Of a DNA stretch of 64,000 bases, positions 18,227 through 54,848 are shown piece by piece (position 1 is the stretch's first letter; each line of letters opens with the position of its first letter). The notes beneath the pieces are model-generated. The model worked only from the letters and a program-made list of their open reading frames with translations. It was not told the origin of the DNA and did not search any database. Where the stretch lies: assembly GCF_007830265.1 (NCBI RefSeq), contig NZ_VLKE01000001.1:4774001-4838000 (forward strand). The letters run 5' to 3'. The position numbers and the translations under genes are program-made. This DNA is from Micromonospora olivasterospora (lineage in GTDB: Bacteria > Actinomycetota > Actinomycetes > Mycobacteriales > Micromonosporaceae).

Positions 18227-18232
18227 GGCGGC

Positions 18233-19820: not shown

Positions 19821-19827
19821 GCCCGCA

Positions 19828-21867: not shown

Positions 21868-21999
21868 ACATAACTGCCAGTCCTCAGTGCTGACCCATGC
21901 TCCTGCTGTTGGTGTGCCGGTAAGAGCGGGGGTCATGAACACCGCTATGGCGTTCAGTCCGCTGAACGTCTTGCTTTGGCCGCGCCGTGATCGGGGGCC

Positions 22000-22388: not shown

Positions 22389-22442
22389 AGGGGGGCCGAC
22401 CGGAATACGCCGGAAACGGCAATAGGCTGGTGAATCCGCTGG

Positions 22443-22720: not shown

Positions 22721-22828
22721 ATAATTTTGGTGCCGGACATGAGCGGCGGTCAGCGCGGCTGGTTTGCACGTGGCTGACTGATCCGCATTGGGTGCCCCTG
22801 TTTCGGGGCGGGAGGGAAGCGTTGCGCG

Positions 22829-25800: not shown

Positions 25801-28800
25801 AGAGGACGTGCTGGCCGCGTTGCGGGCGGTGCCGGGGTCGATGGTCGTGGTCAGGGCCGCGCCACCGAACGAGCCCCAACACGTGTTCGCCCTCCACAGC
25901 CAACCACAACCATCCGGACCGCCGACGATCAAGGTGCGCGACGGCCTGGTGCCCGGCGCCGAGGACCGACCACCCGACCCGTGGCTGCGACACCTGTTCA
26001 TGTCCGGCACCTGGCTGGCCGCGTTCGACGCGGACGGGCGACCCGCCACCATCACCGACCTACTCGGCCAGGCCGCCCGCCACCCGCGGCCGATCACCAC
26101 GACGGGCGCCGACACCAGCGCGTTCCTGCTCGCCTCTACCAGCACGCCGCGCAGTCCGTCCCAGGCGATGCGAGCCACCTCTACCGACCCGGCCGACTCG
26201 GCCGGCTCCGCCCCGGGCAGGCAGCCGTCCGATCCGGTGGAAGGTGACGGATCGTCTGCTCCTGCCCCGTCGACCGTGGTGGACACCGGAGCGTTGAGTG
26301 GCCGGGTTGGCCAGGGTGAGGCAGCTGCCGCGGAGCCGGACGTGCACGTCGGGCAGGCTCCCGCCGGTGCTGCCACGCCGCCGCCAGCGGTGGTGTCCTC
26401 GCAGCTGCTGACCGGCCACCCCGGCCTGGTGTTCGCGTCGACGTCGTGGCAGGAGGCGTCGGGCCGGTGGCTGCGGGCCTCGGCCGGCACGGATGGGACG
26501 GTGCGGATCTGGGATGCGGCCGACGGTCGCCTGCTCCAGACGTTGGAAGGCCACACCCTCCCGGTGTGGGCGGTGACGTCGTGGCAGGAGGAGTCGGGCC
26601 GGCGGCTGGTGGCCTCCGCCAGCGGGGATGGGACGGTGCGGATCTGGGATGCGGCCGACGGCCGCCTGCTCCAGATGTTGGAAGGCCACATCGACGAGGT
26701 GCGGGCGGTGACGTCGTGGCAGGCGGGGCCGGGCCGGCGGCTGGTGGCCTCCGCCAGCGGGGATGGGACGGTGCGGATCTGGGATGCGGCCGACGGCCGC
26801 CTGCTCCAGATGTTGGAAGGCCACACCGGCCAGGTGTTGGCGGTGACGTCGTGGCCGGCGGGGCCGGGCCGGCAGCTGCTGGCCTCCGCCGGCGCGGATC
26901 GGACGGTGCGGATCTGGGATGCGGCCGACGGCCGCCTGCTCCAGACGTTGGAAGGCCACACCGACGAGGTGTCGGCGGTGACGTCGTGGCCGGCGGGGCC
27001 GGGCCGGCAGCTGCTGGCCTCCGCCAGCGACGACTCGACGGTGCGGATCTGGGATGCGGCCGACGGCCGCCTGCTCCAGACGTTGGAAGGCCACACCGAC
27101 GAAGTGTGGGCGGTGACGTCGTGGGAGGAGGCGTCGGGCCGGCGGCTGCTGGCCTCCGCCGGCGAGGATCGGACGGTGCGGATCTGGGATGCGGCCGACG
27201 GTCGCCTGGTCCGGACGTTGGACGGCCACACCGGCTCGGTGTGGGCGGTGACGTCGTGGCCGGCGGGGCCGGGCCGGCGGATGCTGGTCTCCGCCAGCGA
27301 GGATCGGACGGTGCGGTTGTGGTCCCTGCCGGATGGTGTTGCGGGGCTGGCGGGGTTGCCTGCCGTGCCGGGTGGGCGGGCTGCCGCTGGAAACGACCCC
27401 GCACCTGTGTCCGCGACCAGTGTCGGGGAGTTGAGTGGCCGGATTGGCCGGGTTGAGGCAGCGGCCGCGGAGTTGGACGCGCACGTCGGGCAGGCTCCCG
27501 CCGGTGCTGCCACGCCGCCACCGGCGGTGGTGTCCCCGCGGCTGCTGACCGGCCACGCCGGCCCGGTGTGGGGGGTGACGTCGTGGCAGGAGGCGTCGGG
27601 CCGGTGGCTGGTGGCCTCCACCGGCACGGATCGGAGGGTGCGGATCTGGGATGCGGCCGATGGTCGCCTGATCGGGACGTTGGAAGGCCACACCGGCGCG
27701 GTGCGGGCGGTGACGTCGTGGCAGGAGGGGCCGGGCCGGCGGATGCTGGCCTCCGCCAGCGGGGATCGGACGGTGCGGATCTGGGATGCGGCCGACGGCC
27801 GCCTGCTCCAGACATTAAGAGGCCACACCGGCACGGTGTTCGCGGTGACGTCGTGGCAGGCGGGGTCGGGCCGGCGGATGCTGGCCTCCACCGGCACGGA
27901 TCGGACGGTGCGGATCTGGGATGCAGCCGACGGCCGCCTGCTCCGGACATTGGACGGCCACACCGGCCCGGTGTCGGCGGTGACGTCGTGGCAGGAGGGG
28001 CCGGGCCGGCGGATGCTGGCCTCCACCAGCGGGGATCAGACGGTGCGGATCTGGGATGCGGCCGACGGCCGCCTGCTCCGGACATTGGACGGCCACACCG
28101 GCCCGGTGCGGGCGGTGACGTCGTGGCAGGAGGAGTCGGGCCAGCGGCTGCTGGCCTCCACCAGCACGGATCGGACGGTGCGGATCTGGGATGCGGCCGA
28201 CGGCCGCCTGCTCCGGACGTTGGACGGCCACACCGGCCAGGTGTTGGCGGTGACGTCGTGGCAGGAGGAGTCGGGCCGACGGCTGCTGGCCTCCGCCGGC
28301 GCGGATCGGACGGTGCGGATCTGGGATGCAGCCGACGGCCGCCTGATCCGGACATTGGAAGGCCACACCGGCACGGTGTGGGCGGTGACGTCGTGGCAGG
28401 AGGAGTCGGGCCGACGGCTGCTGGCCTCCACCAGCGGGGATCAGACGGTGCGGTTGTGGCCCCTGCCGGATAGTGCTGCAGAGCTGGCGGGGTTGCCTGC
28501 CGTGCCGGGTGGGCGGGTTGCCGCTGGAAACGATCCCGGACCTGTGTCCGCGACCGGTGTCGGGGCGTTGAGTGGCCGGATTGGCCAGGGTGAGGCAGCT
28601 GCCGCGGAGCCGGACGCGCACGTCGGGCAGGCTCCCGCCGGTGCTGCCACACCGCCGCCGGCGGTGTCTCCGCAGTTGCTGACCGGCCACACCGGCCCGG
28701 TGTACGCGTCGACATCGTGGCAGGAGGAGTCGGGCCAGCGGCTGCTGGCCTCCACCAGCTACGACCGGACGGTACGGATCTGGAATGCGGCCGACGGCCG

Positions 28801-31800
28801 CCTGATCCGGACATTGGAAGGCCACACCGCCGCGGTGTCGGCGGTGACATCGTGGCCGGCGGCGTCGGGCCAGCGGCTGCTGGCCTCCACCAGCTACGAC
28901 CGGATGGTACGGATCTGGAATGCGGCCGACGGCCGCCTGATCCGGACGTTGGAAGGCCACACCGCCGCGGTGTTGGCGGTGACATCGTGGCCGGCGGCGT
29001 CGGGCCAGCGGATGCTGGCCTCCACCAGCACGGATCGGACGGTACGGATCTGGGATGCCGCCGACGGCCGCCTGCTCCAGACGTTGGAGGGCCACACCGG
29101 CCCGGTGTTGGCGGTGACATCGTGGCCGGCGGCGTCGGGCCAGCGGATGCTGGCCTCCACCAGCTGGGATCAGACGGTGCGGATCTGGGATGCGGCCGAC
29201 GGTCGCCTGGTCCGGACGTTGGAAGGCCACACCGGCCAGGTGTTGGCGGTGACGTCGTGGCAGGAGGGGCCGGGCCAGCGGCTGCTGGCCTCCACCAGCG
29301 GGGATCAGACGGTGCGGATCTGGAATGCGGCCGACGGTCGCCTGATCCGGACGTTGGAAGGCCACACCGGCACGGTGCGGGCGGTGACATCGTGGCCAGC
29401 GGCGTCGGGCCAGTGGCTGCTGGCCTCCGCCAGCGCGGATCGGACGGTACGGATCTGGAATGCGGCCGACGGCCGCCTGGTCCGGACGTTGGACGGCCAC
29501 ACCGGCACGGTGTCGGCGGTGACGTCGTGGCAGACGGGGCCGGGCCGGCGGATGCTGGCCTCCGCCAGCGAGGATCGGACGGTGCGGTTGTGGCCCCTGC
29601 CGGATGGTGCTGCGGGGCTGGCGGGATTGCCTGCCGTGCCGGGTGGGCGGGCTGCCGCTGGAAACAACCCCGCACCTGTGTCCGGGCCCGGCATTGGTGT
29701 GACCGCTGGGCACGGTGCGACGTCCGTCGGCCGGCCGAGCATCGACGATCAGGCCGGCGACGGCAGCGGGAACCTCGGCGCCTGGGCCACCTACCAGGGG
29801 CCGGACATCATGGATTGGCAACCATCCGCGCCCTCCCCGGCGGTGACCCGCACCGACGCCGGCACTGTCCACGCCGGCGACACCCTTCATTCCCCCGCCG
29901 ACGAGCCACCCACCACCCTCGCCCCGCTGCACCCCGACCAACCCCAACCCGCTGCGGGCAGCCGGTGGGTGCGCGACCGGAATGAGGCCCGGACGCTGTT
30001 CGACCAGCACGCCGACCACATCGCCACCACAACACGGCAGCGGGATCAGCTGCGGCAGTTGTGGGACGCCCTGATCGACCATATGGACGCCTACGGGATC
30101 ATCACCGCCAGCGGGTTCGCCCTCGCCGCGGCGACATCCACACCGCGGAGGAGGGTGCATCACCAGATCGGGGTATTGCGCGGCAGTGGTCTGCTGCATC
30201 CGGTCCAGAGAGGTCACGGTCGCGTGGGGGCGCCGTACAGGGTGATCGATCCGGGTCAGCCCCGGCGACTATCGGTCCCGCCAGACCGCATCGCCGAGGA
30301 AGTCACCGCACGGCCGCCGACGGTCCCGGCCGACTCGGCCGGCTCCGCCCCAGGTTTCCTGACGGTTCGGGGTGTCGCCAGTGCTGCCGGCCCCGCCGAG
30401 GCGGTGGTGGTGTATCCGGATGGTGTGGGCGCTGAGGTTGATCCGCGAGGTCTGTCTGTGGTGGCGCAGCGGCAGGCGGTGACGGATGCCGAAACGTGGT
30501 CGGCGAGGGCGGTTGAGAGGACGTGGAATCGGTCTGCGGATGAACTGCTGGACGAGGTGCAGGGCCGTGGTGGGGTGTGGCGGGTGGTACTGGCGTTCGG
30601 CGATCGCGGGCATGAGGGTGTGCTGGATCTCGTGAGGCGATTGCTTGATGGCCGGCTCCCGGGGGTGCAGGTGCCTGCGACGGCGGTGATCGAGTTGTCG
30701 CCGTATGGTGCTGGTCCGTTGGTGGAGCCTCGGACGGTGGTCGAGGTCGCGGCGTTGCGGGTAAGGCGTGGCCAGTCGGGGGCGGTAGCGATCCGTTCGC
30801 GGTATGTGGCGGGCGTGGGGGCGAGGTCTGTTCCTCAGGGTCTGATTCCTGTCGATTTCTCGGGTCGGGAGACGTTCGCGGGTGGGGCGTTGCTGTGGGA
30901 GTTCCACGCGCGTCCGATCCGTCCGGAGGATGCCCGGTCGGCTCAGTTCTACCGGGAGGCGCGGGGATTGCACGGTGTGCATGCGCCGTATCTTCTGCCG
31001 CCGGACCGGCGTTGGGCGCGGTTCGGGCAGCGGGCGGCCTCGTATATGCGGGATTGGGTGTTCCCTCCGGTGCCGTCGTCAGGGCTTGGTCGGTGGCGGG
31101 TGGTGGAGTTGCGGCAGGCGGGGTTGCTTGCCGGGGAGAGTGTGGCGGGGGCGACGCCGGACGTGGGGCCGGTGGGGTGGGTGCCGGATGGCGCGCGGGT
31201 GTTGGTGGTGGGTGTGCCGCGGCCGCATCCGGTGCATCCCACGGCGGTCGTGGACACATTGTTCGACACGTTCCTGAACAGTGCGTTGCCGCCGGTGGAG
31301 TCGGGGTTGCGGGAGCCGGTGTATGTGGTGGTGCACGGGTTCGGTGGGCGGGCATCGCCGGTGGTGTTGGCGCATGTGGCGGAGGGTGACCTGTGGCCGG
31401 TGCGGATGGGTGAGATGGCCGCCGGCCAGCCGGTGGTAGGCACTCGGGAGGTGTCGAATCTCGTCGAGGCGCAGAGTTGGACCCGGGTGCGGTCCGAGTT
31501 GCCCCCGATCGCGGCGGCGCTGCAACCGGGCGGGGCGGCTGAGCAGTGGCGGGCTCGGGTTCCGGAGCTGACGGCGATGCTTCCCGATGTGACCGTGACC
31601 GATCCGCTGGCGGTCGACCTGTCGACCCCGGACGCCGCCGGCACGGTAGGGGTGCGGGCGCACCGCCGGATGGGTGAGCGGGTGGAGCAGCTGGTCGCGT
31701 TGGGTGCAGGAGTTGGTCCGGCATACACGCGAGTGGGTGGGTGGGGCTGCGGTAAACGGATCGGCTCGATCTGCGGCTGGAGGAATGGGCGGGGCACGGC

Positions 31801-31819
31801 GACAGTCAGCAGTTGGTGA
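22829..31819 (+). CDS. giant WD40 protein, N-terminal part: helical/hydrophobic region, papain-like domain, propellers 1-3, start of module A1
   Basis: A 2,996-codon frame, from TTG 22829 (GGAGGG at 22811; no other start in frame after the stop at 22775). Residues 1-110 are helical and charged; about 120-290 contain hydrophobic and Gly/Ala-rich segments (FNFMIAEFAVAAAMWFWNPV; GAAAFLGTVGGPALGRAAGV) like the WXG100-like region of actinobacterial giant toxins. Pro-rich linkers follow. Residues ~920-1060 form a papain-like domain with Cys931 (DLWWCVAATLD), His1018 (HVFALH) and Asp1038 (KVRDGL). Propellers 1, 2 and 3 (seven blades each) run 26400-29600. After a linker (GSGNLGAWATYQGPD) and a small helix-turn-helix-like segment near 30000-30250, module A1 begins at 30361; one extra base near 31710 ends the frame at 31819. 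No signal peptide. Secretion by a type VII system is inference. Confidence 0.8.
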   Translation: MAAAGPTLELSESALRALEAFTGMRVSRAELPLLRDDIGTLGTLAGRVRTVLGPLLEQTIRAVRQAGEGEAFDRFVAQTAPFVRKMAETADLMLAVVEAEKKFFVETEVGKRTALAMFNFMIAEFAVAAAMWFWNPVGAAAHVAQTRTIIQAILRSALVRSAASGTAMQMLFMPGSALLAEVSMMTDGLQPGVNWSTVGKQAAFAGAAAFLGTVGGPALGRAAGVVAGAVGKLAVSDTTKHLLTDVLTRPVTETLGEGLFGIGASLMVDGYWDPGNLGADLLSGAISGAGGAAASGLGFVVSRAVVQPRVQMPHLAFTPDGKPVLPVGPTPVGLDTSAGYEAGVDDPKPVVTGGQAPPPPPVPLLPASNLPAPALDLPAPKLDLSVPSWSVPSWSMPAAPVPQWVALAGAPVVEQWHGFQQELADHYGGLLAGTGQARQFLAGLPVPVEQVFTEWADVRQNDPAVPVFLSQVGLPATALTDQFLFGVRDRAVAQVTETLAGQVPAGGQIPAAVRPEQVVAALPGEFDRQALRSIAHLAVGHHLDQYFTTGAPATVPLPGGVVLPGGVVPPGVAGVPGAAGVPGGSGAAAPPSDAVRAAVEREVRAHVDRSLDAILGATPLPAAPLTALLAVPPVVPPAAVVRPDAAQVSAVADVVRQAVTDLPARVTAAAISDTTAPHTTPSGTDTPTHRRTDLPTVPVTPEQHTAAATSQAETQFTALAREYGVEPASHDTLAGSFQRDWVNGYHQVLAQATGNATPATPSTPGTPGTPDAAGARSTVPGGVAPRTDGTPNHDHISDRTSVSDPSVSSIFSRDNRPDDTFTVSDLSSLDEPISRDPVTRDFIDGDPVSGVPSLNESDNGEAAKREFRDTDPFRDASSRDGLISGDPVGRGEPAVAATGQAVAPFGSGQRVANWAAGEQVRPGSSGDLWWCVAATLDVFQTEYKRLGNRAVFDDRIIGPDGRLAPTMGWPQLMEILDTVPERVAHPDGVAGEDVLAALRAVPGSMVVVRAAPPNEPQHVFALHSQPQPSGPPTIKVRDGLVPGAEDRPPDPWLRHLFMSGTWLAAFDADGRPATITDLLGQAARHPRPITTTGADTSAFLLASTSTPRSPSQAMRATSTDPADSAGSAPGRQPSDPVEGDGSSAPAPSTVVDTGALSGRVGQGEAAAAEPDVHVGQAPAGAATPPPAVVSSQLLTGHPGLVFASTSWQEASGRWLRASAGTDGTVRIWDAADGRLLQTLEGHTLPVWAVTSWQEESGRRLVASASGDGTVRIWDAADGRLLQMLEGHIDEVRAVTSWQAGPGRRLVASASGDGTVRIWDAADGRLLQMLEGHTGQVLAVTSWPAGPGRQLLASAGADRTVRIWDAADGRLLQTLEGHTDEVSAVTSWPAGPGRQLLASASDDSTVRIWDAADGRLLQTLEGHTDEVWAVTSWEEASGRRLLASAGEDRTVRIWDAADGRLVRTLDGHTGSVWAVTSWPAGPGRRMLVSASEDRTVRLWSLPDGVAGLAGLPAVPGGRAAAGNDPAPVSATSVGELSGRIGRVEAAAAELDAHVGQAPAGAATPPPAVVSPRLLTGHAGPVWGVTSWQEASGRWLVASTGTDRRVRIWDAADGRLIGTLEGHTGAVRAVTSWQEGPGRRMLASASGDRTVRIWDAADGRLLQTLRGHTGTVFAVTSWQAGSGRRMLASTGTDRTVRIWDAADGRLLRTLDGHTGPVSAVTSWQEGPGRRMLASTSGDQTVRIWDAADGRLLRTLDGHTGPVRAVTSWQEESGQRLLASTSTDRTVRIWDAADGRLLRTLDGHTGQVLAVTSWQEESGRRLLASAGADRTVRIWDAADGRLIRTLEGHTGTVWAVTSWQEESGRRLLASTSGDQTVRLWPLPDSAAELAGLPAVPGGRVAAGNDPGPVSATGVGALSGRIGQGEAAAAEPDAHVGQAPAGAATPPPAVSPQLLTGHTGPVYASTSWQEESGQRLLASTSYDRTVRIWNAADGRLIRTLEGHTAAVSAVTSWPAASGQRLLASTSYDRMVRIWNAADGRLIRTLEGHTAAVLAVTSWPAASGQRMLASTSTDRTVRIWDAADGRLLQTLEGHTGPVLAVTSWPAASGQRMLASTSWDQTVRIWDAADGRLVRTLEGHTGQVLAVTSWQEGPGQRLLASTSGDQTVRIWNAADGRLIRTLEGHTGTVRAVTSWPAASGQWLLASASADRTVRIWNAADGRLVRTLDGHTGTVSAVTSWQTGPGRRMLASASEDRTVRLWPLPDGAAGLAGLPAVPGGRAAAGNNPAPVSGPGIGVTAGHGATSVGRPSIDDQAGDGSGNLGAWATYQGPDIMDWQPSAPSPAVTRTDAGTVHAGDTLHSPADEPPTTLAPLHPDQPQPAAGSRWVRDRNEARTLFDQHADHIATTTRQRDQLRQLWDALIDHMDAYGIITASGFALAAATSTPRRRVHHQIGVLRGSGLLHPVQRGHGRVGAPYRVIDPGQPRRLSVPPDRIAEEVTARPPTVPADSAGSAPGFLTVRGVASAAGPAEAVVVYPDGVGAEVDPRGLSVVAQRQAVTDAETWSARAVERTWNRSADELLDEVQGRGGVWRVVLAFGDRGHEGVLDLVRRLLDGRLPGVQVPATAVIELSPYGAGPLVEPRTVVEVAALRVRRGQSGAVAIRSRYVAGVGARSVPQGLIPVDFSGRETFAGGALLWEFHARPIRPEDARSAQFYREARGLHGVHAPYLLPPDRRWARFGQRAASYMRDWVFPPVPSSGLGRWRVVELRQAGLLAGESVAGATPDVGPVGWVPDGARVLVVGVPRPHPVHPTAVVDTLFDTFLNSALPPVESGLREPVYVVVHGFGGRASPVVLAHVAEGDLWPVRMGEMAAGQPVVGTREVSNLVEAQSWTRVRSELPPIAAALQPGGAAEQWRARVPELTAMLPDVTVTDPLAVDLSTPDAAGTVGVRAHRRMGERVEQLVALGAGVGPAYTRVGGWGCGKRIGSICGWRNGRGTATVSSW
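26400..29600 (+). repeat. WD40 array 1: propellers 1-3 (21 blades)
   Basis: Twenty-one copies of a 135-bp unit encoding GHTxxVxAVTSWQEESGRR-LLASASGDxTVRIWDAADG-RLLxTLE. Propellers start near 26400, 27540 and 28672, a super-period of about 1,135 bp made of seven units plus a linker of about 75 residues. The seventh blade always ends TVRLW(P/S)LPD in place of TVRIWDAADG, then AGLAGLPAVPGGR. Blades of propeller 3 have several TVRIWNAADG variants not common elsewhere. Confidence 0.95.
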
Positions 31820-33221
31820 CGGCGTTCGCGAGGGCTGGGCGGTTGACCGGATGAGGTGGAAGGCCTGGTAGCGGACCATATTGGGCGGGTGTGGGCCGCG
31901 GCGGTGCCACCGGGGATCGTCTTGGCCGCAGAGGGCGCGACGGTACCGGACGCCGTCCGGGACGTGTTGCGGGCGGTGTATCTGGGTGCCTGGGTCCTTG
32001 CTACGGGATCGGGCGGACCGGTCGTGGTTCGAGGATACGCTGGCGGCGGCAGGCTGACCTGTCCCGCGTGCGGTCTGGCAGTGGGGCGGAGTTCACCCGG
32101 TTCCTGGCTGATCATGGCGGGGACGTGGCGTTGTTGTGGTCGGCGGACGGTCCGGCAGACCCGGGAGCGCAGGTTTCCAGGCTCCGGGCTGCCCTGGACG
32201 TGCCGCTGGTGCCGCGGCGGGTGGACGTGGTGGGGCGGGTGCCGGGGGTGTCCGAGCAGCGGAGCGCGGAGTTGCTCTCCGCGGTGAGCGCGTTCGGGTT
32301 GGCGCGGGAGTTGTTGGAGGAACAGATCCGGTTGCTGCCGGCTCGGGCGGCGGTGTTGCCGGGGCAGGCCAGCGTAACGGCGCCACCACCGGAAGCGGCA
32401 CCGTCACCACACGCCGGCGATGCTCCGGTGGTGTACGAGTGGGTGGCCGGGCCGCAGGGTGTGGCTCCGGGTGGGGGGCAGCCGTCGGCGGGTGGGTTGC
32501 CGGAGTGGATGCACCGGGGGATCGCCGGGGTGACGGGCTGTTGTGTTTGCTGGACTCGTTGGCGCAGACGCTCAATGGTGTGCGGCCGGGCCAGTATCGC
32601 GGGTTCGACAACGTGGAGACACGGGCGCAGGCGCTGCTGGACCGGATGGAGGGGCGGCTGGGTTCCGATCATGTGGTGATCCGGGATCTGCGGTCTGCGC
32701 GCGGTGCCGAAGTGTATTCGGGTGGGTTCCTGAACGCGTTGGCGGAGCTTTTCCAGGTGCGGGTCCAGGTCGTCGAGCAAGGAGGCGACCGCAGGTGGTA
32801 CGGACACCCGGTGGTGGGACGGGACGGAAACGCGCCGTTGATGTTGGTCGAGTTCGTGTCACCCGGTTCGGGTGGTCGGGGTGGTCCGGCCGATGAGGAA
32901 ATGGGTACGTTCTATCCGTTGTTCGTCGATACGGTGCATGCCGCCGCTCTCGGTGGCGCGGCCACCATCACCGATCATCTCATCCAGCGGTGGGAGGCTC
33001 TGGTCGGTGGCCATGCGGAGCGTATCGACAGACTTCAAGCCGCTGAGAGGCCGTTGGTGGAGGCGGCCGAACGCGGCCAGGACGTCGGCCAGGCGCGGTC
33101 GGTCCTGGATCGGCTGTCCGACCGGTACCTCGACGGGCTGCGGGACCTCAGGCTCGCGCGGGGGTCGCGTGACCTGAGCGAGTACGTCCGATCGGTGTCC
33201 GACATCGCTGCGTTGAGCGGC
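30361..33221 (+). repeat. module A1, first copy of a 2.86-kb duplicated segment
   Basis: Nearly identical over its whole length to 41148-44001. The left boundary is GACGGTTCGGGGT; the right boundary merges into the propeller linker after SVSDIAALSGRI. Differences: five one-base indels between 31710 and 32520, one in-frame 6-bp insertion near 32870, and scattered substitutions. Confidence 0.95.
31700..32519 (+). pseudogene. giant WD40 protein, frame-broken middle of module A1
   Basis: Compared with the intact second copy (offset about 10.78 kb) this stretch has +1 at ~31710, +1 at ~31750, +1 at ~31850, -1 at ~32045 and -1 at ~32515. Between them the peptide continues in different frames: EGLVADHIGRVWAAAVPPGI (31859 on) and then GAEFTRFLADHGGDVALLWS (32093 on). 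Base substitutions are also denser here than in the flanks, e.g. around 32060-32080. The clustering suggests true loss of constraint in this copy rather than random errors, although both may contribute. Confidence 0.7.
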
Positions 33222-35882
33222 CGCATTGGCCGGATTGAGGCAGCGGCCGCGGAGTTGGACGCGCACGTCGGGCAGGCTCCCGCCGGTGCTGCCACGCCGC
33301 CACCGCTCGTGTCCCCACAGCTACTGACCGGCCACACCGGCATGGTGCGGGCGGTGACGTCGTGGCAGGAGGAGTCGGGCCGGCGGCTGCTGGCCTCCGC
33401 CAGCTTGGACGAGACGGTACGGATCTGGGATGCGGCCGACGGCCGCCCGGTCCGGACGTTGGAAGACCACACCGGCCCGGTGTCGGCGGTGACGTCGTGG
33501 CAGGAGGCGTCGGGCCGGCGGCTGCTGGCCTCCGCCAGCGGGGACGGGACGGTGCGGATCTGGGATGCGGCCGACGGTCGCCTGATCCGGACGTTGGAAG
33601 GCCACACCGACGCGGTGTGGGCGGTGACGTCGTGGCAGGAGGAGTCGGGCCGGCGGCTGCTGGCCTCCGCCAGCGGGGACGGGACGGTGCGGATCTGGGA
33701 TGCGGCCGACGGCCGCCTGCTCCGGACGTTGGAAGGCCACACCGACGAGGTGTCGGCGGTGACGTCGTGGCAGGAGGAGTCGGGCGGGCGGCTGCTGGCC
33801 TCCGCCAGCGGGGACGAGACGGTGCGGATCTGGGATGCGGCCGACGGCCGCCTGCTCCGGACGTTGGACGGCCACACCGGCGAGGTGTCGGCGGTGACGT
33901 CGTGGCAGGAGGAGTCGGGCCGGCGGCTGCTGGCCTCCGCCAGCGGGGACGGGACGGTGCGGATCTGGGATGCGGCCGACGGCCGCCTGGTCCGGACGTT
34001 GGACGGCCACACCGACGAGGTGTCGGCGGTGACGTCGTGGCAGGAGGAGTCGGGCCGGCGGCTGCTGGCCTCCGCCAGCGTGGACGAGACGGTGCGGATC
34101 TGGGATGCGGCCGACGGCCGCCTGATCCAGACGTTGGAAGACCACACCGACATGGTGTTGACGGTGACGTCGTGGCCGGCGGGGCCGGGCCGGCGGATGC
34201 TGGCCTCCGCCGGCGGGGATCAGACGGTGCGGTTGTGGACCCTGCCGGACGCTGCTGCGGGGCTGGCGGGGTTGCCTGCCGTGCCGGGTGGGCGGGTTGC
34301 CGCTGGAAACGACCCCGGACCTGTGCCCGCGACCAGTGTCGGGGAGTTGGGCAGCGGGAACCTCGGCGCCTGGGCTACCTACCAGGGGCCGGACATGGAC
34401 TGGCAACCATCCGCGCCCTCCCCGGCGGTGGTGGTGTCTCCGCAGCTACTGACCGGCCACACCGGCCCGGTGTCGGCGGTGACGTCGTGGCAGGAGGAGT
34501 CGGGCCGGCGGATGCTGGCCTCCGCCAGCTGGGACGAGACGGTACGGATCTGGGATGCGGCCGACGGCCGCCTGGTCGGGACGTTGGCAGGCCACACCGA
34601 CGCGGTGTCGGCGGTGACGTCGTGGCAGGCGGCGTCGGGCCGGCGGCTGCTGGCCTCCGCCGGCGAGGATGGGACGGTGCGGATCTGGGATGCGGCCGAC
34701 GGCCGTCTGATCCGGACATTGGAAGGCCACACCCGCGCGGTGTGGGCGGTGACGTCGTGGCAGGCGGCGTCGGGCCAGCGGCTGCTGGCCTCCGCCAGCG
34801 GGGATCGGACGGTGCGGATCTGGGATGCGGCCGACGGCCGCCTGATCCGGACATTGGAAGGCCACACCGGCCAGGTGTTGGCGGTGACGTCGTGGCAGGA
34901 CGAGTCGGGCCGGCGGCTGTTGGCCTCCACCAGCACGGATCGGACGGTGCGGATCTGGGATGCGGCCGACGGCCGCCTGCTCCAGACGTTGGAAGGCCAT
35001 ACCGGCCCGGTGTCGGCGGTGACGTCGTGGCAGGAGGAGTCGGGCCAGCGGCTGTTGGCCTCCGCCAGCGGGGACGAGACGGTGCGGATCTGGGATGCGG
35101 CCGACGGTCGCCTGCTCCAGACGTTGGCAGGCCACACCGGCCCGGTGTCGGCGGTGACATCGTGGCAGGCGGCGTCGGGCCAGCGGCTGTTGGCCTCCGC
35201 CAGCGGGGATCGGACGGTGCGGATCTGGGATGCGGCCGACGGCCGCCTGATCCGGACATTGGAAGGCCACACCGGCTCGGTGTTCGCGGTGACGTCGTGG
35301 GAGGCGGGGCCGGGCCGGCGGATGCTGGCCTCCGCCGGCAGGAATCAGACGGTGCGGTTGTGGCCCCTGCCGGATGGTGCTGCAGGGTTGGCGGGGTTGC
35401 CTGCCGTGCCGGGTGGGCGGGTTGGCGCTGGAAACGACCCCGCACCGGTGCTCGCGACCAGTGTCGGGGAGGTGAGCGGCCGGATTGGCCGGGTTGAGGC
35501 AGCGACCGCGGAGCCGGACGCACACGTCGGACAGACTCCCGCCGATGCTGCCACGCCGCCAGCAGTGGTGTCCCCGCAGCTGCTGACCCACACCGGCATG
35601 GTGTCGGCGGTGACGTCGTGGCAGGAGGAGTCGGGCCAGCGGCTGTTGGCCTCCGCCAGCTGGGATCAGACGGTACGGATCTGGGATGCGGCCGACGGCC
35701 GCCTGCTCCAGACATTGGACGGCCACACCGACCCGGTGTACGCGGTGACCTCGTGGCAGGCGGGCCGGGCCAGCGGCTGCTGGCCTCCGCCAGCAGGGAC
35801 CGGACGGTACGGATCTGGGATGCGGCCGACGGTCGCCTACTCCGGACATTGGCAGGCCACACCCGCCCGGTGTTGGCGGTGA
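32520..35882 (+). CDS. giant WD40 protein, part 2: OTU-like end of module A1, propellers 4 and 5, start of propeller 6
   Basis: Frame regained at GAT 32520 with GDGLLCLLDSLAQTLNGVRP and ELFQVRVQVVEQGGDRRWYG, an OTU-like cysteine-protease pattern, then a helical spacer with AERGQDVGQARSVLDRLSDR. Propeller 4 (33314-34237) and propeller 5 (34445-35366) have seven blades each; between them the linker carries the GSGNLGAWATYQGPD segment also seen after propeller 3. Propeller 6 starts at 35584 with THTGMV instead of GHTGMV. A missing G in GCGGGCCGGGCC at ~35765 breaks the frame, and the nominal stop is 35882. The segment has no start codon of its own; it belongs to the same giant gene. Confidence 0.7.
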   Translation, partial: DRRGDGLLCLLDSLAQTLNGVRPGQYRGFDNVETRAQALLDRMEGRLGSDHVVIRDLRSARGAEVYSGGFLNALAELFQVRVQVVEQGGDRRWYGHPVVGRDGNAPLMLVEFVSPGSGGRGGPADEEMGTFYPLFVDTVHAAALGGAATITDHLIQRWEALVGGHAERIDRLQAAERPLVEAAERGQDVGQARSVLDRLSDRYLDGLRDLRLARGSRDLSEYVRSVSDIAALSGRIGRIEAAAAELDAHVGQAPAGAATPPPLVSPQLLTGHTGMVRAVTSWQEESGRRLLASASLDETVRIWDAADGRPVRTLEDHTGPVSAVTSWQEASGRRLLASASGDGTVRIWDAADGRLIRTLEGHTDAVWAVTSWQEESGRRLLASASGDGTVRIWDAADGRLLRTLEGHTDEVSAVTSWQEESGGRLLASASGDETVRIWDAADGRLLRTLDGHTGEVSAVTSWQEESGRRLLASASGDGTVRIWDAADGRLVRTLDGHTDEVSAVTSWQEESGRRLLASASVDETVRIWDAADGRLIQTLEDHTDMVLTVTSWPAGPGRRMLASAGGDQTVRLWTLPDAAAGLAGLPAVPGGRVAAGNDPGPVPATSVGELGSGNLGAWATYQGPDMDWQPSAPSPAVVVSPQLLTGHTGPVSAVTSWQEESGRRMLASASWDETVRIWDAADGRLVGTLAGHTDAVSAVTSWQAASGRRLLASAGEDGTVRIWDAADGRLIRTLEGHTRAVWAVTSWQAASGQRLLASASGDRTVRIWDAADGRLIRTLEGHTGQVLAVTSWQDESGRRLLASTSTDRTVRIWDAADGRLLQTLEGHTGPVSAVTSWQEESGQRLLASASGDETVRIWDAADGRLLQTLAGHTGPVSAVTSWQAASGQRLLASASGDRTVRIWDAADGRLIRTLEGHTGSVFAVTSWEAGPGRRMLASAGRNQTVRLWPLPDGAAGLAGLPAVPGGRVGAGNDPAPVLATSVGEVSGRIGRVEAATAEPDAHVGQTPADAATPPAVVSPQLLTHTGMVSAVTSWQEESGQRLLASASWDQTVRIWDAADGRLLQTLDGHTDPVYAVTSWQAGRASGCWPPPAGTGRYGSGMRPTVAYSGHWQATPARCWR

Positions 35883-38881: not shown

Positions 38882-39304
38882 GTGGCCGGATTGGCCAGGG
38901 TGAGGCAGCGACCGCGGAGTCGGACGCACACGTCGGGCAGGCTCCCGCCGGTGCTGCCACGCCGCCGCCGGCGGTGGTGTCTCCGCAGTTGCTGACCGGC
39001 CACACCGGCGCGGTGTGGGCGGTGACGTCGTGGCAGGAGGCGTCGGGCCGGCGGATGCTGGCCTCCGCCGGTGCGGATCGGTCGGTGCGGATCTGGGATG
39101 CGGCCGACGGTCGCCTGGTCGGGACGTTGGAAGGCCATACCGGCACGGTGTCGGCGGTGACGTCGTGGCAGGAGGCGGGCCGGCGGCTGCTGGCCTCCGC
39201 CGGTGCGGATCGGTCGGTGCGGATCTGGGATGCGGCCGACGGTCGCCTGGTCGGGACGTTGGAAGGCCATACCGGCACGGTGTGGGCGGTGACGTCGTGC
39301 AGGA
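38846..39304 (+). pseudogene. giant WD40 protein, part 4: linker and first blades of propeller 9, frame-broken
   Basis: Third-frame segment: EPVPATSVGALSGRIGQGEA, then HVGQAPAGAATPPPAVVSPQ and propeller-9 blades GHTGAVWA, GHTGTVSA and the start of the third. One blade lacks the Ala-Ser of QEASG (in-frame 6-bp loss near 39176). At ~39298 the text GTCGTGCAGGAGGGGCGG replaces the usual GTCGTGGCAGGAGG and the frame changes. Propeller 9 is the most damaged of the seventeen. Confidence 0.65.
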
Positions 39305-43900: not shown

Positions 43901-46900
43901 GCCGGTACCTCGACGGGCTGCGGGACCTCAGGCTCGCGCGGGGGTTGCGTGACATGAGCGAGTACGTCCGATCGGTGTCCGACATCGCTGCGTTGAGCGG
44001 CCGGATTGGCCGGGTTGAGGCAGCGGCCGCGGAGTTGGACGCGCACGTCGGGCAGGCTCCCGCCGGTGCTGCCACGCCGCCGCCGGCGGTGGTGTCTCCG
44101 CAGTTGCTGACCGGCCACACCGGCGCGGTGTGGGCGGTGACGTCGTGGCAGGAGGAGTCGGGCCGGCGGCTGCTGGCCTCCGCCAGCACGGATCGGTCGG
44201 TGCGGATCTGGGATGCGGCCGACGGTCGCCTGGTCGGGACGTTGGAAGGCCATACCGGCACGGTGTCGGCGGTGACGTCGTGGCAGGAGGCGTCGGGCCG
44301 GCGGATGCTGGCCTCCGCCGGTGCGGATCGGTCGGTGCGGATCTGGGATGCGGCCGACGGCCGCCTGCTCCAGACATTAAGAGGCCACACCGGCCCGGTG
44401 CGGGCGGTGACGTCGTGGCAGGAGGAGTCGGGCCGGCGGCTGCTGGCCTCCGCCAGCTTGGACGAGACGGTGCGGATCTGGGATGCGGCCGACGGCCGCC
44501 TGATCCGGACGTTGGACGGCCACACCGGCACGGTGTTGGCGGTGACGTCGTGGCAGGAGGAGTCGGGCCGGCGGCTGCTGGCCTCCGCCAGCGGGGACGA
44601 GACGGTGCGGATCTGGGATGCGGCCGACGGCCGCCTGCTCCAGACATTTAGAGGCCACACCGACGCGGTGTGGGCGGTGACGTCGTGGCAGGAGGAGTCG
44701 GGCCGGCGGCTGCTGGCCTCCGCCGGCGAGGATCGGACGGTGCGGATCTGGGATGCGGCCGACGACCGCCCGGTCCGGACGTTGGCAGGCCACACCGGCA
44801 CGGTGCGGGCGGTGACGTCGTGGCAGGAGGGGCCGGGCCGGCGGCTGCTGGCCTCCGCCAGCGGGGATCGGACGGTGCGGATCTGGGATGCGGCCGACGG
44901 CCGCCTGCTCCGGACGTTGGAAGGCCACACCGGCACGGTGTTCGCGGTGACATCGTGGCAGGAGGAGTCGGGCCGGCAGGTGCTGGCCTCCGCCAGCGCG
45001 GATCGGACAGTGCGGTTGTGGACCCTGCCGGATGGTGTTGCGGGGCTGGCGGGGTTGCCTGCCGTGCCGGGTGGGCGGGTTGCCGCTGGAAACGACCCCG
45101 CACCTGTGCCCGCGACCAGTGTCGGGGAGTTGAGTGGCCGGGTTGGCCGGGTTGAGGCCGCGGCCGTGGAGTCGGACGCGCACGTCGGACAGGCTCCCGC
45201 CGGTGCTGCCACGCCGCCGCCGGTGGTGTCCCCGCAGCTGCTGACCGGCTACACCGGCACGGTGTTCGCGGTGACGTCGTGGCAGGAGGAGTCGGGCCGG
45301 CGGCTGCTAGCCGCCGCCGGCGACGAGCGGACGGTGCGGATCTGGGATGCGGCCGGCGGTCGCCTGGTCGGGACGTTGGAGGGCCACACCGGCCCGGTGT
45401 TGGCGGTGACGTCGTGGCAGGAGGAGTCGGGCCGGCGGCTGGTGGCCTCCGCCAGCTTGGACGAGACGGTGCGGATCTGGGATGCGGCCGACGGCCGCCT
45501 GCTCCAGACGTTGGAAGGCCACACCGACGAGGTGTTGGCGGTGACGTCGTGGCAGGAGGAGTCGGGCCGGCGGCTGCTGGCCTCCGCCAGCTTGGACGAG
45601 ACGGTGCGGATCTGGGATGCGGCCGACGGTAGCCTGCTCCGGACGTTGGCAGGCCACACCGGCGCGGTGTCGGCGGTGACGTCGTGGCAGGAGGCGTCGG
45701 GCCGGCGGCTGCTGGCCTCCGCCAGCGTGGACGAGACGGTGCGGATCTGGGATGCGGCCGACGGTAGCCTGCTCCGGACGTTGGAAGGCCACACCGACAC
45801 GGTGTCGGCGGTGACGTCGTGGCAGGACGAGTCGGGCCGGCAGCTGCTGGCCTCCGCCAGCGTGGACGAGACGGTGCGGATCTGGGATGCGGCCGACGGT
45901 CGCCTGGTCCGGACGTTGGAAGGCCACACCGACACGGTGTCGGCGGTGACGTCGTGGCAGGAGGGGCCGGGCCGGCGGCTGCTGGCCTCCGCCAGCATGG
46001 ACGAGACGGTGCGGATCTGGGATGCGGCCGACGGTCGCCTGGTCCGGACGTTGGAAGGCCACACCGACGAGGTGTTGGCGGTGACGTCGTGGCCGGAGGA
46101 GTCGGGCGGGCGGATGCTGGCCTCCGCCGGCGGGGATCAGACGGTGCGGTTGTGGCCCCTGCCGGATGCTGCTGCGGGGTTGGCGGGGTTGCCTGCCGTG
46201 CCGGGTGGGCGGGTTGCCGCTGGAAACGACCCCGCACCTGTGCCCGCGACCAGTGTCGGGGAGTTGCGTAGCCGGATTGGCCAGGGTGAGGCAGCGGCCG
46301 CGGAGCCGGACGCGCACGTCGGGCAGGCTCCCGCCGGTGCTGCCACGCCGCCACCGGCGGTGGTGTCTCCGCAGTTGCTGACCGGCCACACCGACACGGT
46401 GTCGGCGGTGACGTCGTGGCAGGAGGCGTCGGGCCAGCGGCTGCTGGCCTCCGCCGGCGACGAGCGGACGGTGCGGATCTGGGATGCGGCCGACGGTCGC
46501 CTGGTCGGGACGTTGGAAGGCCACAGCGGCCCGGTGTGGGCGGTGACGTCGTGGCAGGAGGCGTCGGGCCGGCGGATGCTGGCCTCCGCCAGCGGGGATC
46601 AGACGGTGCGGATCTGGGATGCGGCCGACGGCCGCCTGATCCGGACGTTGGAAGGCCACACCCGCACGGTGTGGGCGGTGACGTCGTGGCAGGAGGAGTC
46701 GGGCCGGCGGATGCTGGCCTCCGCCAGCGGGGATCAGACGGTGCGGATCTGGGATGCGGCCGACGGCCGCCTGATCCGGACGTTGGAAGGCCACACCGAG
46801 TGGGTGCGGGCGGTGACGTCGTGGCAGGAGGAATCGGGCCAGCGGCTGCTGGCCTCCGCCAGCGGGGACGAGACGGTGCGGATCTGGGATGCGGCCGACG

Positions 46901-48537
46901 GTCGCCTGCTCCAGACGTTGGAAGGCCACACCGACGAGGTGTTCGCGGTGACGTCGTGGCAGGAGGAGTCGGGCCAGCGGCTGCTGGCCTCCGCCAGCGG
47001 GGATCGGACGGTGCGGATCTGGGATGCGGCCGACGGTCGCCTGGTCCGGACGTTGGAAGGCCACACCGACGAGGTGTCGGCGGTGACGTCGTGGCAGGAG
47101 GCGTCGGGCCAGCGGCTGCTGGCCTCCGCCAGCGGGGATCGGACGGTGCGGATCTGGGATGCGGCCGACGGTCGCCTGGTCCGGACGTTGGAAGGCCACA
47201 CCGACTGGGTGTTGGCGGTGACGTCGTGGCCGGAGGAGTCGGGCGGGCGGATGCTGGCCTCCGCCGGCGGGGATCAGACGGTGCGGTTGTGGCCCCTGCC
47301 GGATAGTGCTGCGGGGTTGGCGGGGTTGCCTGCCGTGCCGGGTGGGCGGGCTGCCGCTGGAAACGACCCCGCACCTGTGCCCGCGACCAGTGTCGGGGAG
47401 CTGAGCGGCCGGATTGGCCGGGTTGAGGCAGCGGCCGCGGAGTTGGACGCGCACATCGGGCAGACTCCCGCCGGTGCTGCCACGCCGCCGCCGGTGGTGC
47501 CCCCGCAGTTGCTGACCGGCCACACCGAGGAGGTGCGGGCGGTGACGTCGTGGCAGGAGACGTCGGGCCAGCGGATGGTGGCCTCCGCCAGCGACGACCG
47601 AACGGTGCGGATCTGGGATGCGGCCGACGGTCGCCTGGTCCGGACGTTGGAAGGCCACACCGACGAGGTGTTGGCGGTGACGTCGTGGCAGGAGGAGTCG
47701 GGCCGGCGGCTGCTGGCCTCCGCCAGCGTGGACGAGACGGTGCGGATCTGGGATGCGGCCGACGGTCGCCTGCTCCGGACGTTGGAAGGCCACACCGACG
47801 AGGTGTTGGCGGTGACGTCGTGGCAGGAGGAATCGGGCCGGCGGCTGCTGGCCTCCGCCAGCGTGGACGAGACGGTGCGGATCTGGGATGCGGCCGTCGG
47901 CCGCCTGCTCCAGACGTTGGCAGGCCACACCGACGCGGTGTCGGCGGTGACGTCGTGGCAGGAGGAATCGGGCCAGCGGCTGCTGGCCTCCGCCAGCGCG
48001 GACGAGACGGTGCGGATCTGGGATGCGGCCGACGGCCGCCTGCTCCAGACGTTGGACGGCCACACCGACCCGGTGTTCGCGGTGACGTCGTGGCAGGCGG
48101 CGTCGGGCCAGCGGCTGCTGGCCTCCGCCAGCTGGGACGAGACGGTGCGGATCTGGGATGCGGCCGACGGTCGCCTGCTCCAGACGTTGGAAGGCCACAC
48201 CCGCCCGGTGTCGGCGGTGACGTCGTGGCAGGCGGCGTCGGGCCAGCGGCTGCTGGCCTCCGCCAGCGGGGATCAGACGGTGCGGATCTGGGATGCGGCC
48301 GACGGCCGCCTGCTCCAGACGTTGGAAGGACACACCGACTGGGTGTGGGCGGTGATGTCGTGGCCGGCGGGCCGGGCCGGCGGATGCTGGCCTCCGCCAG
48401 CGGGGATCGGACGGTGCGGTTGTGGCCCCTGCCGGATGGTGCTGCGGGGCTGGCGGGGTTGCCTGCCGTGCCGGGTGGGCGGGTTGCCGCTGGAAACAAC
48501 CCCGCACCTGTGCCCGCGACCAGTGTCGGGGCGTTGA
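40853..48537 (+). CDS. giant WD40 protein, part 6: end of propeller 10, intact module A2, propellers 11-14
   Basis: The longest unbroken stretch after the first. Module A2 (41148-44001) is intact: RTVRGFASAAGPAEAVVVYP start, a beta-rich middle with YVVVHGFGGRVSPVVLAHVA, helical region GEELVRHTREWVGG, and the OTU-like part with Cys codon at 43330 (GDGLLCLLDSLAQ) and ELAELFQVRVQVVEQGG; where OTU proteases end HYDPLF, this has GTFYPLF, so the catalytic His seems lost. Propellers 11 (44107-45024), 12 (45241-46160), 13 (46379-47294) and 14 (47513-48428) follow, seven blades each. A missing G at ~48366, in the same GCGGGCCGGGCC context as 35765, breaks the frame. Homology starts at 40853; the nominal stop is 48537. 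Confidence 0.75.
41148..44001 (+). repeat. module A2, second and intact copy of the duplicated segment
   Basis: Direct repeat of module A1 in the same orientation, separated from it by the seven propellers of array 2. It keeps one open frame throughout, so it is the copy to use for function prediction. Confidence 0.95.
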
Positions 48538-51500
48538 GCGGCCGGATTGGCCGGGTTGAGGCAGCGGCCGCGGAGTTGGACGCGCACGTCGGGCAGGCTC
48601 CCGCCGATGCTGCCACGCCGCCAGCAGTGGTGTCCCCGCAGCTGCTGACCGGCCACACCGGCATGGTGTCGGCGGTGACGTCGTGGCAGGAGGAGTCGGG
48701 CCGGCGGCTGCTGGCCTCCGCCAGCGGGGATCAGACGGTGCGGATCTGGGATGCGGCCGACGGCCGCCTGCTCCAGACATTGGACGGCCACACCGGCCCG
48801 GTGTACGCGGTGACCTCGTGGCAGGAGGGGCCGGGCCAGCGGCTGCTGGCCTCCGCCAGCAGGGACGAGACGGTGCGGATCTGGGATGCGGCCGACGGTC
48901 GCCTACTCCGGACATTGGCAGGCCACACCCGCTCGGTGTTGGCGGTGACATCGTGGGAGGAGGAGGGGTCGGGCCGGCGGCTGCTGGCCTCCGCCAGCAT
49001 GGACGAGACGGTGCGGATCTGGGATGCGGCCGACGGTCGCCTGCTCCAGACGTTGGAAGGCCACACCGACCCGGTGTTCGCGGTGACCTCGTGGCAGGAG
49101 GGGCCGGGCCGGCGGCTGCTGGCCTCCGCCAGCATGGACGAGACGGTGCGGATCTGGGATGCGGCCGACGGTCGCCTGCTCCAGACGTTGGAAGGCCACA
49201 CCGACCCGGTGTGGGCGGTGACGTCGTGGCAGGAGGAGTCGGGCCGGCGGCTGCTGGCCTCCGCCAGCGCGGACGAGACGGTGCGGATCTGGGATGCGGC
49301 CGACGGTCGCCTGCTCCAGACGTTGGAAGGCCACACCGACACGGTGTCGGCGGTGACGTCGTGGCAGGAGCAGTCGGGCCGGCGGCTGCTGGCCTCCGCC
49401 AGCGGGGACGAGACGGTGCGGATCTGGGATGCGGCCGACGGTCGCCTGGTCGGGACGTTGGAAGGCCACACCGACACGGTGTTGGCGGTGACGTCGTGGC
49501 CGGCGGGGCCGGGCCGGCGGATGCTGGCCTCCGCCGGCAGGGATCAGACGGTGCGGTTGTGGACCCTGCCGGGCGCTGCTGCGGGGCTGGCGGGGTTGCC
49601 TGCCGTGCCGGGTGGGCGGGTTGGCGCTGGAAACGACCCCGGACCTGTGTCCGGGACCAGTGTCGGGGAGTTGAGTGGCCGGGTTGGCCGGGTTGAGGCA
49701 GCGTCCGCGGAGTCGGACGTGCACGTCGGGCAGGCTCCCGCCGGTGCTGCCACGCCGCCGCCGGCGGTGGTGTCCCCGCGGCTGCTGACCGGCCACACCG
49801 AGTGGGTGCGGGCGGTGACGTCGTGGCAGGAGGAGTCGGGCCGGCGGATGCTGGCCTCCGCCGGCATGGATCGGACGGTGCGGATCTGGGATGCGGCCGA
49901 CGGCCGCCTGATCCAGACGTTGGAAGACCACACCGGCCCGGTGCGGGCGGTGACGTCGTGGCAGGAGGAATCGGGCCAGCGGCTGCTGGCCTCCGCCGGC
50001 ACGGATGGGACGGTGCGGATCTGGGATGCGGCCGACGGTCGCCTGATCGGGACGTTGGAAGGCCACACCGACGCGGTGTTGGCGGTGACGTCGTGGCAGG
50101 ACGAGTCGGGCCGGCAGCTGCTGGCCTCCGCCAGCGGGGACGAGACGGTGCGGATCTGGGATGCGGCCGACGGCCGCCTGCTCCAGACGTTGGAAGGCCA
50201 CACCGACCAGGTGTCGGCGGTGACGTCGTGGCAGGACGAGTCGGGCCGGCAGCTGCTGGCCTCCGCCAGCGACGACGAGACGGTGCGGATCTGGGATGCG
50301 GCCGACGGCCGCCTGCTCCAGACATTGGAAGGCCACACCGGCGAGGTGTTGGCGGTGACGTCGTGGCAGGACGAGTCGGGCCGGCAGCTGCTGGCCTCCG
50401 CCGGCAGGGATCAGACGGTGCGGATCTGGGATGCGGCCGACGGCCGCCTGCTCCAGACGTTGGAAGGCCACACCGACGAAGTGTGGGCGGTGACGTCGTG
50501 GGAGGAGGCGTCGGGCCGGCGGCTGCTGGCCTCTGCCGGCAGGGATCAGACGGTGCGGATCTGGGATGCGGCCGACGGTCGCCTGCTCCGGACGTTGGAA
50601 GGCCACACCCGCGCGGTGCGGGGGGTGACGTCGTGGCCGGCGGGGCCGGGCCGGCGGATGCTGGCCTCCGCCAGTCATGACCGGACGGTGCGGTTGTGGC
50701 CCCTGCCGGATGGTGCTGCAGGGCTGGCGGGATTGCCTGCCGCGCCGGGTGGGCGGGCTGCCGCTGGAAACGACCCCGCACCTGTGCCCGCGACCAGTGT
50801 CGGGGCGTTGAGTGGCCGGATTGGCCGGGTTGAGGCAGCGGCCGCGGAGTCGGACGCGCACGTCGGGCAGGCTCCCGCCGGTGCTGCCACGCCGCCGCCG
50901 GCGGTGGTGTCCCCGCGGCTGCTGACAGGCCACACCGGCCCGGTGTACGCGTCGACGTCGTGGCAGGAGGCGTCGGGCCGGCGGATGCTGGCCTCCGCCA
51001 GCGGGGACGAGACGGTGCGGATCTGGGATGCGGCCGACGGCCGCCTGATCTGGACGTTGGAAGGCCACACCGGCCCGGTGTTCGCGGTGACGTCGTGGCA
51101 GGAGGCGTCGGGCCGGCGGATACTGGCCTCCGCCGGCATGGATCGGACGGTGCGGATCTGGGATGCGGCCGACGGCCGCCTGCTCCGGACATTGGAAGGC
51201 CACACCGGCCCGGTGCGGGCGGTAACGTTGTGGCCGGCGGTGTCGGGCCGGCGGATGCTGGCCTCCACCAGCACGGATCGGACGGTGCGGATCTGGGATG
51301 CGGCCGACGGTCGCCTGATCCAGACGTTGGACCACACCGGCCCGGTGTGGGCGGTGACGTCGTGGCAGGAGGCGTCGGGCCGGCGGATGCGGGCCTCCAC
51401 CAGCAGGGATCGGACGGTGCGGATCTGGGATACGGCCGACCGTCGCCTGCTCCGGACGTTGGAAGGCCACACCGGCCCGGTGTTGGCGGTGACGTCGTGG

Positions 51501-51702
51501 CAGGAGGAATCGGGCCGGCGGCTGCTGGCCTCCGCCAGCGCGGATCGGACGGTACGGATCTGGGATACGGCCGACGGCCGCCTGCTCCAGACGTTGGAAG
51601 GCCACACCGGCCCGGTGTGGGGGGTGACATCCTGGCAGGCGGGGCCGGGCCGGCGGATGCTGGCCTCCGCAAGCCATGACGAGACGGTGCGGTTGTGGCC
51701 CC
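44107..51702 (+). repeat. WD40 array 3: propellers 11-17 (48 blades)
   Basis: Starts near 44107, 45241, 46379, 47513, 48647, 49786 and 50923; super-period 1,133-1,142 bp. Six propellers of seven blades and a last one of six. Propellers 15 and 16 resemble propellers 6 and 7 in linker and blade order, 13.06 kb apart. Confidence 0.95.
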
Positions 51703-52306: not shown

Positions 52307-52511
52307 GATCCACTACCGGGCGCGGCCGCCGATGTTCCCGCAGGCCGCCGAGTCCCGAAACCCGTCCCGGAACCGGCGTGTCGTCGCCGTGTGTCGGGGT
52401 ACGGCCTGGAGTGCAGAGCTAAGTACAGCTGATCTTGCAGAGGTGCGCACTGTTTGTCCGTCGTCAGCGGGTGACTGAGGGTGAGGCTGCTCGGGTCGTG
52501 ATCGGGCAGAC

Positions 52512-54838: not shown

Positions 54839-54848
54839 CAGGTCACCA

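Follow-up and report, generated by a model that had tools for sequence, protein, structure and literature searches.

What could keep more than a hundred WD40 blades together in one bacterial gene, and what would such an array serve? The window, by which is meant the whole stretch of 64,000 nucleotides of Micromonospora olivasterospora DNA that was analysed, contains at 26,400–51,702 what had been read from its letters as one gene with a tandem array of near-identical propellers. That reading did not include the non-WD40 modules, the wider gene family, the head that its members share, the connection to secretion or the breaks in frame described below.

Anatomy of the array

The window gene (gene A, 22,829–51,860) is composed of the following parts, in window positions.

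22,829–26,413, + strand: shared head, then a low-complexity linker, then a Cys...His region
26,414–29,593, + strand: WD40 block 1, propellers 1–3 of seven blades each, starting at 26,414, 27,551 and 28,685
29,594–33,329, + strand: module M1, non-WD40, about 3.7 kb, with frame changes at about 31.7–32.6 kb
about 29.8–30.3 kb, + strand: winged-helix-like unit inside M1, recognised by eye against the winged-helix repeats of the family
33,330–41,034, + strand: WD40 block 2, propellers 4–10 of seven blades each, starting at 33,330, 34,455, 35,586, 36,725, 37,862, 38,998 and 40,127
41,035–44,112, + strand: module M2, non-WD40, about 3.1 kb, in frame and open
44,113–51,698, + strand: WD40 block 3, propellers 11–17, of which 11–16 have seven blades (starts 44,113, 45,247, 46,384, 47,518, 48,651 and 49,791) and 17 has six (start 50,928)
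51,699–51,860, + strand: gene end, a linker and an acidic tail like the end of paralogue B

With a nucleotide profile built from 68 window blades, 118 blades are detected from 26,414 to 51,698, in sixteen groups of seven and one of six; 20 versions of the region with two-base blocks shuffled give no match. This is exactly the count of the original prediction (118 blades in 17 propellers), which had offered the grouping in sevens as one point on which it could be refuted. The repeat lengths it named, a 135-bp unit and a super-unit of about 1,135 bp, are borne out by Tandem Repeats Finder, which reports 135-bp arrays across 26,440–51,674, and by the spacing of propeller starts inside the blocks, which is 1,125–1,140 bp. 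About 118 hits had also been expected from a WD40 protein profile; that number comes from the DNA profile, while Pfam PF00400 matches strongly in the two WD40-bearing open reading frames scanned of the five main ones (18 and 12 stretches, E = 1.5e-160 and 6.4e-120).

The array is not an uninterrupted tandem, since the non-WD40 module breaks it at 29,594–33,329 and at 41,035–44,112. M1 and M2 are 97% identical over 2,984 bp, and M2 is also 97% identical to modules of paralogues B and C. Because the module interrupts the array twice, the WD40 blocks of three, seven and seven propellers form a third repeat level, and the window gene has three in all: blade, propeller, and block plus module. Genes of this type therefore offer a natural case of three nested repeat levels. 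A six-blade propeller closes the array in each of A, B and C; it is thus a fixed feature and no counting slip.

Paralogues and the mixing of propellers

Two further giant WD40 genes, B and C, lie on the same chromosome as gene A.

contig 1, 3,785,292–3,810,326, - strand: paralogue B, 97 blades in thirteen propellers of seven and one of six

Paralogue B is open over 25 kb, for 8,344 codons from stop to stop and 8,335 from the first start codon; paralogue C includes one eight-blade group. The locus had been called exceptional, which holds for its blade number, even the intact paralogue B far exceeding the record of 47 highly similar consecutive WD40 blades given in the accessible text of a survey (PMC9218822), and fails for its uniqueness, two such paralogues being found on the same chromosome.

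The propellers of the three genes are intermixed. Inside the window locus the closest pair reaches 94.3% identity. A propeller often has its nearest counterpart in another gene: the propeller at 38,998 of A is 98.8% identical to one of C, and a pair from B and C reaches 99.2%. Among 301 blades of seven-blade propellers, the best outside match falls in a different gene for 197; complete mixing was calculated to give about 205, and as this is no excess the count is taken as evidence of mixing only. The best match occupies the same blade position in 193 of the 301 against 43 expected, and whole propellers are therefore the main moving unit. Furthermore, propeller order is not conserved among A, B and C except at the end; window propellers 1 and 3 match late propellers of C, and 8 and 9 match early ones. 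Over window 29,785–31,706, a run of 1,922 bases of A recurs unchanged in C, a locus 2.1 Mb away, and the two modules of B have 1,618 identical bases in common; these tracts indicate recent conversion or duplication.

Reshuffling among dispersed paralogues like that of the fungal HNWD genes is thus found, with ongoing exchange and old shared ancestry incompletely separated by these data. Part of the mixing could have been inherited from a duplicated old array and then rearranged. Of the earlier claim of ongoing homogenisation by recombination, the recombination stands on the intermixed and reordered propellers; that it continues today is an extrapolation from them.

Diversified codons

The consensus blade of genes A–C is GHTGPVWAVTSWQEESGRRLLASASGDRTVRIWDAADGRLLRTLE. 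Blades had been described as near-identical, differing at only a few codons. In fact, mean pairwise DNA identity is 88.9% among 260 full 135-bp blades of genes A–C and 89.4% among the 93 of the window locus, all 93 of which are distinct. Identity is not the main feature either: the scaffold is alike, but four codons per blade are diversified. The codon comparisons cover the blades of exactly 135 bp (260 of 336 nhmmer rows), apart from blades of other lengths, each propeller's shorter last blade among them, and ratios of replacement to synonymous change were obtained by pairwise Nei-Gojobori counting without a codon model, in which related blades are non-independent.

Among the 45 codons of the pooled blades, those with most replacement differences are 26, 7, 5 and 28. 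At these four pN/pS is 4.32, against 1.04 at the remaining codons. They also come out on top in each gene separately, with pN/pS of 6.22 in A (93 blades), 3.64 in B (77) and 3.66 in C (90). The four form two pairs, flanking V6 (258 of 260 blades) and D27 (256 of 260), and carry 161 distinct four-residue combinations among the 260 blades. In gene D of a second genome, G116, codons 5, 7, 26 and 28 rank fourth, first, second and sixth, with pN/pS 4.47 against 1.07 elsewhere, and codons 39 and 4 also enter the top five for replacement; 42 of the 79 blades of D were usable, the other 37 being dropped as not alignable without gaps. G116 gene E, with only 3 of its 44 blades aligning without gaps, was left out of the comparison.

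A second tier of variable codons in A–C (42, 15, 41, 4 and 45; pN/pS 3.89) lies mostly away from the d-a loop and the b-c turn. Outside the repeats pN/pS is 0.91–1.45 in the head, where changes are few, and 0.54–0.90 in the module, and with values near 1 in the head and of this size in the module, constraint overall looks weak. The codon bias of a GC-rich genome may lower synonymous change. Four codons drawn at random from 45 would coincide with a given set once in 148,995 draws, which is not an independent probability, because repetitive WD40 proteins are already known to be diverse at interaction-hotspot sites (accessible text of PMC5587647).

Predicted propeller structure

One propeller (window 46,339–47,319) was modelled with an alignment that included 15 other propellers. 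As the original prediction expected of a seven-blade unit, a seven-bladed ring is predicted, with 28 strands as seven times four, pLDDT 94.4 and pTM 0.91; the best solved matches by Foldseek are designed and natural WD40 rings. From WD40 topology, the short first strand (residues 12–14) is expected to close the ring by completing the last blade. In the first blade of the model, codons 5, 7, 26 and 28 correspond to residues 20, 22, 41 and 43, and strands a, b and c to residues 21–28, 34–40 and 44–49, so that residues 20 and 22 fall before strand a and at its start, and residues 41 and 43 in the stretch linking strands b and c.

Podospora repeats diversify at corresponding places. According to the accessible text of Paoletti et al. 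(PMC1805685), codon pairs 7/9 and 25/27 diversify in Podospora HNWD blades around conserved codons 8 and 26, and these lie at the d-a loop and b-c turn (PMC1805685 and PMC2873952, likewise as far as accessible). The equivalence of the four codons is one of structural place, drawn without letter-by-letter alignment.

The shared head and its gene family

The head of gene A extends for about 1,200 codons from 22,829, and its first 324 or so residues are the part common to the family. This 324-residue head gives 43 rows, corresponding to at least 41 copies on contigs 1 and 2 of this genome after two split copies were joined; the number is a lower bound from 54 scored of 71 candidates. An open frame of at least 1,800 codons is found at 26 of the 41 copies and one of less than 1,000 codons at 14. 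The 26 long frames total about 85,000 codons, or 255 kb, 3.6% of the genome.

The head gives no match in Pfam or NCBIfam (E 0.1), PADLOC or PDB sequences; at the same threshold no WXG, LXG or CpnT-type domain is found in it by Pfam or NCBIfam. PADLOC gave no match in four proteins tested. No NACHT or STAND domain is found by Pfam at E 0.1 in 22,829–26,428, in module M2 or in the scanned part of M1. The AlphaFold model of the head has pLDDT 34.9, too poor for a judgement of fold. After the linker stands a Cys/His pair (WWCVAATLD at 25,613 and PQHVFALHS), which one regular expression finds in 17 of 48 loci scanned; a catalytic head domain was considered for this pair, which has no family match, and no enzyme is claimed.

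The bodies that follow the head vary. Genes A, B and C carry WD40 arrays. A 9,010-codon frame with two propellers of seven blades adjoins the head copy at 6,179,649, and we infer that head and frame form one gene though their frames differ. Other copies carry 336-bp winged-helix-like units of 112 residues (18 of 37 stretches scanned) or units of 300–327 bp. The winged-helix-like arrays gave 174 ungapped units in 18 loci, about seven of them counted twice where stretches L034 and L049 overlap. Codon 38 of 74 is the most replacement-variable there; it and the variable codons 32–34 lie in the presumed recognition helix, whose placement comes from a weakly scoring alignment (E 0.92) with a putative transcriptional regulator, and codons 27, 11, 57 and 55 vary as well. 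Two further repeat types yielded too few ungapped units for codon analysis, 19 for class 3 and 3 for class 4 (DGWTEGDPPQ...). The tails of A and B are short and acidic, judged by eye.

Link to type VII secretion

The head copy at 6,179,649 lies downstream of type VII secretion (ESX) genes on the same strand. The order before it is an EccC-like FtsK/SpoIIIE gene, EccD, EccB, two WXG100 genes, YbaB and four genes without a Pfam match. In other genomes of the genus a head gene follows EccB (G006) or YbaB (Micromonospora sp. MW-13). Within 10 kb, an EccB match accompanies this copy only of the 41, and not the window copy. From this locus context, the shared head probably marks the product for type VII secretion.

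CpnT-like and LXG proteins are type VII secretion substrates with large bodies. The present family resembles them in its place at an EccC–EccD–EccB–WXG100 locus, for one copy, and after EccB in G006, and differs in that its head lacks a WXG, LXG or CpnT-type match and that the tails of A and B are short and acidic.

Relatives in other genomes

Among 120 other genomes of the genus the head is matched in six: G116 with 23 rows, four genomes with one clear row each, and G098 with one weak row. Three G116 frames of 10,625, 6,405 and 19,120 codons carry 79, 44 and 15 blades, grouped in sevens and eights; eight-blade groups number 2 out of 11, 2 out of 6 and 1 out of 2, respectively. A frame of at least 2,176 codons is present at 22 of the 23 G116 head copies. 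The frame of 19,120 codons, on contig 1 of G116 at about 179–236 kb, is open and carries the family head besides its 15 blades; to our knowledge it is among the longest bacterial frames known.

A tree of 46 heads, with 38 of the 41 copies of this genome and 4 of the 23 of G116, places most of the former in one group, while three G116 copies join three copies of this genome, G006 and MW-13. This grouping of head sequences suggests separate expansions of the family.

Reading frames and assembly quality

The frame that carries the GHTxxV motif changes in the window at about 31.7–32.6, 35.8, 38.7–39.0, 39.3, 40.9 and 48.3–48.65 kb. No single open reading frame spans the locus, and a single continuous window gene is ruled out for this assembly; B serves as the intact comparison. 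An expansion of the window array by the assembly itself is unlikely, because exact repeats are short (the longest within its WD40 arrays is 170 bp, and the closest propellers are only 94.3% identical) and a second genome holds comparable intact genes.

We lean towards the explanation that the breaks are consensus errors in repeats that cannot be polished and that the gene is intact in the organism, which would be compatible with a role in recognition. Both ends of contig 1 fall within the WD40 array of gene C and split it, so the assembly broke there, and the C propellers adjoining both ends are dense in indels, which fits a poor consensus in repeats. Several other head copies lose their frame by one base in a G run, as seen by eye; a low-complexity G-rich tract at window 24,490–24,600, also present in other copies, is a site of such loss. 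In the accessible text of a 2025 Podospora study (PMC12222747), a one-base deletion in an array of this kind was judged a homopolymer misassembly. Furthermore, B and three G116 genes are open. On the other side, B is equally repetitive and yet has no frame break, and the one-base losses in G runs could be real phase variation as well as homopolymer error.

Proposed function and alternatives

On balance, the window gene appears to be a member of an amplified family of giants, probably exported, with recombining and diversified binding surfaces. The shared head would mark the giant product for a type VII secretion system. The body would be a string of mostly seven-bladed WD40 propellers offering many binding surfaces side by side, with 17 rings of contact residues per molecule. 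Through recombination, propeller cassettes would be spread, exchanged and homogenised inside each of at least three dispersed copies and among them, with the scaffolds kept alike, while selection would diversify the four variable positions of each blade, which lie at the d-a loop and the b-c turn, the contact face of WD40 rings. Mutation, exchange and selection together would renew the contact residues. This would be the logic of HNWD, that of renewable recognition specificities, on a carrier that is probably exported and has no recognisable NLR domain, and its ligands may be surfaces of neighbouring cells, phages or hosts. If so, a bacterium and a fungus would each have arrived independently at WD40 rings with diversifying recognition surfaces, at the same structural sites and by the same mix of homogenising recombination and selected replacement. 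A bacterial recognition repertoire would then become experimentally tractable.

A broader proposal, which we hold only tentatively, is that all of the at least 41 copies together make up one bacterial recognition repertoire, in which a single export head is combined with interchangeable, recombining arrays of different folds, each diversified at its own contact residues. The folds would be WD40 rings, winged-helix units and the two further repeat types, and one clone would carry and renew many specificities.

Repeat expansion of an inert or selfish kind, driven by unequal crossing-over and of little function, in which the window copy would be a decaying pseudogene, is the next alternative and a rather unlikely one. 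It would account for the broken frames of the window copy and of C, for the 14 of 41 head copies with an open frame below 1,000 codons, for pN/pS near 1 outside the variable codons, and for a head found in only six of the 120 other genomes, one of them weakly. It would not lead one to expect that the strongest replacement excess recurs at one set of four codons in all three genes A–C, or that this set ranks high in gene D of G116, nor a frame in B open for 25 kb, nor the long frames of 22 of the 23 G116 head copies.

It is improbable that the product is an intracellular receptor of NLR/STAND type that uses WD40 repeats as its sensors, in the manner of fungal HNWD or cyanobacterial WRAP. The product shares with HNWD the diversified sites and the intermixed repeats, but the 1,200-residue head and the modules, as far as scanned, lack a NACHT/STAND domain at Pfam E 0.1, and one head copy stands at a type VII secretion locus. 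Writing of the variable codons by a diversity-generating retroelement, known to diversify sensors in other bacteria (accessible text of PMC10907252), is very unlikely, for although the genome has reverse-transcriptase domains (8 rows), none of the eight is within the window, the variable codons mostly have the form NNG and change between all four bases instead of showing the adenine specificity of such elements, and the variation is spread over hundreds of blades.

Comparison with known systems

The closest parallel to the preferred reading of a recombining, diversified recognition protein is the HNWD/NWD family of Podospora anserina (het-d, het-e and het-r), in which, as here, the scaffold is alike, four codons diversify in two pairs, and repeats are exchanged among dispersed family members (PMC1805685 and PMC2873952, as far as accessible). 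Unlike HNWD, the window gene is bacterial and without a detected NACHT domain, its kind has 97–118 blades per gene where the accessible text of PMC1805685 gives about 70 for a ten-member HNWD family in all, and whole propellers are the main moving unit.

Repetitive prokaryotic WD40 proteins (Hu 2017; WRAP of Nostoc; Pereira and Lupas 2022) share the high internal identity and, according to the accessible text of PMC5587647, diverse interaction-hotspot sites. Here they are exceeded in size, with 97–118 blades against the maximum of 47 highly similar consecutive ones in the accessible text of PMC9218822, and, unlike them, the present genes have linkers between propellers, a repeated non-WD40 module and a family of at least 41 giants. 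A literature search outside subscription papers gave no account of this head family, of arrays on this scale, of WD40 repeats combined with type VII secretion, of propeller-level mixing among giant paralogues, or of a head common to several repeat types. Repetitive WD40 proteins and HNWD-type diversification are already known; apparently new are the scale of 97–118 blades, the mixing of whole propellers among giants, the head common to other repeat types and the ESX link.

Neighbourhood of the locus

The region at 17,700–22,800, between the alaS/yceG genes and the giant gene, is without clear long coding frames. Behind the giant gene a mobile element follows.

52,391–56,260: IS21-type element with IstB and with pieces of rve and Mu-type transposase, split by an IS4-type transposase gene

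Behind paralogue B, a stretch of this IS21-type element of 1,610 bp or more recurs with 100% identity.
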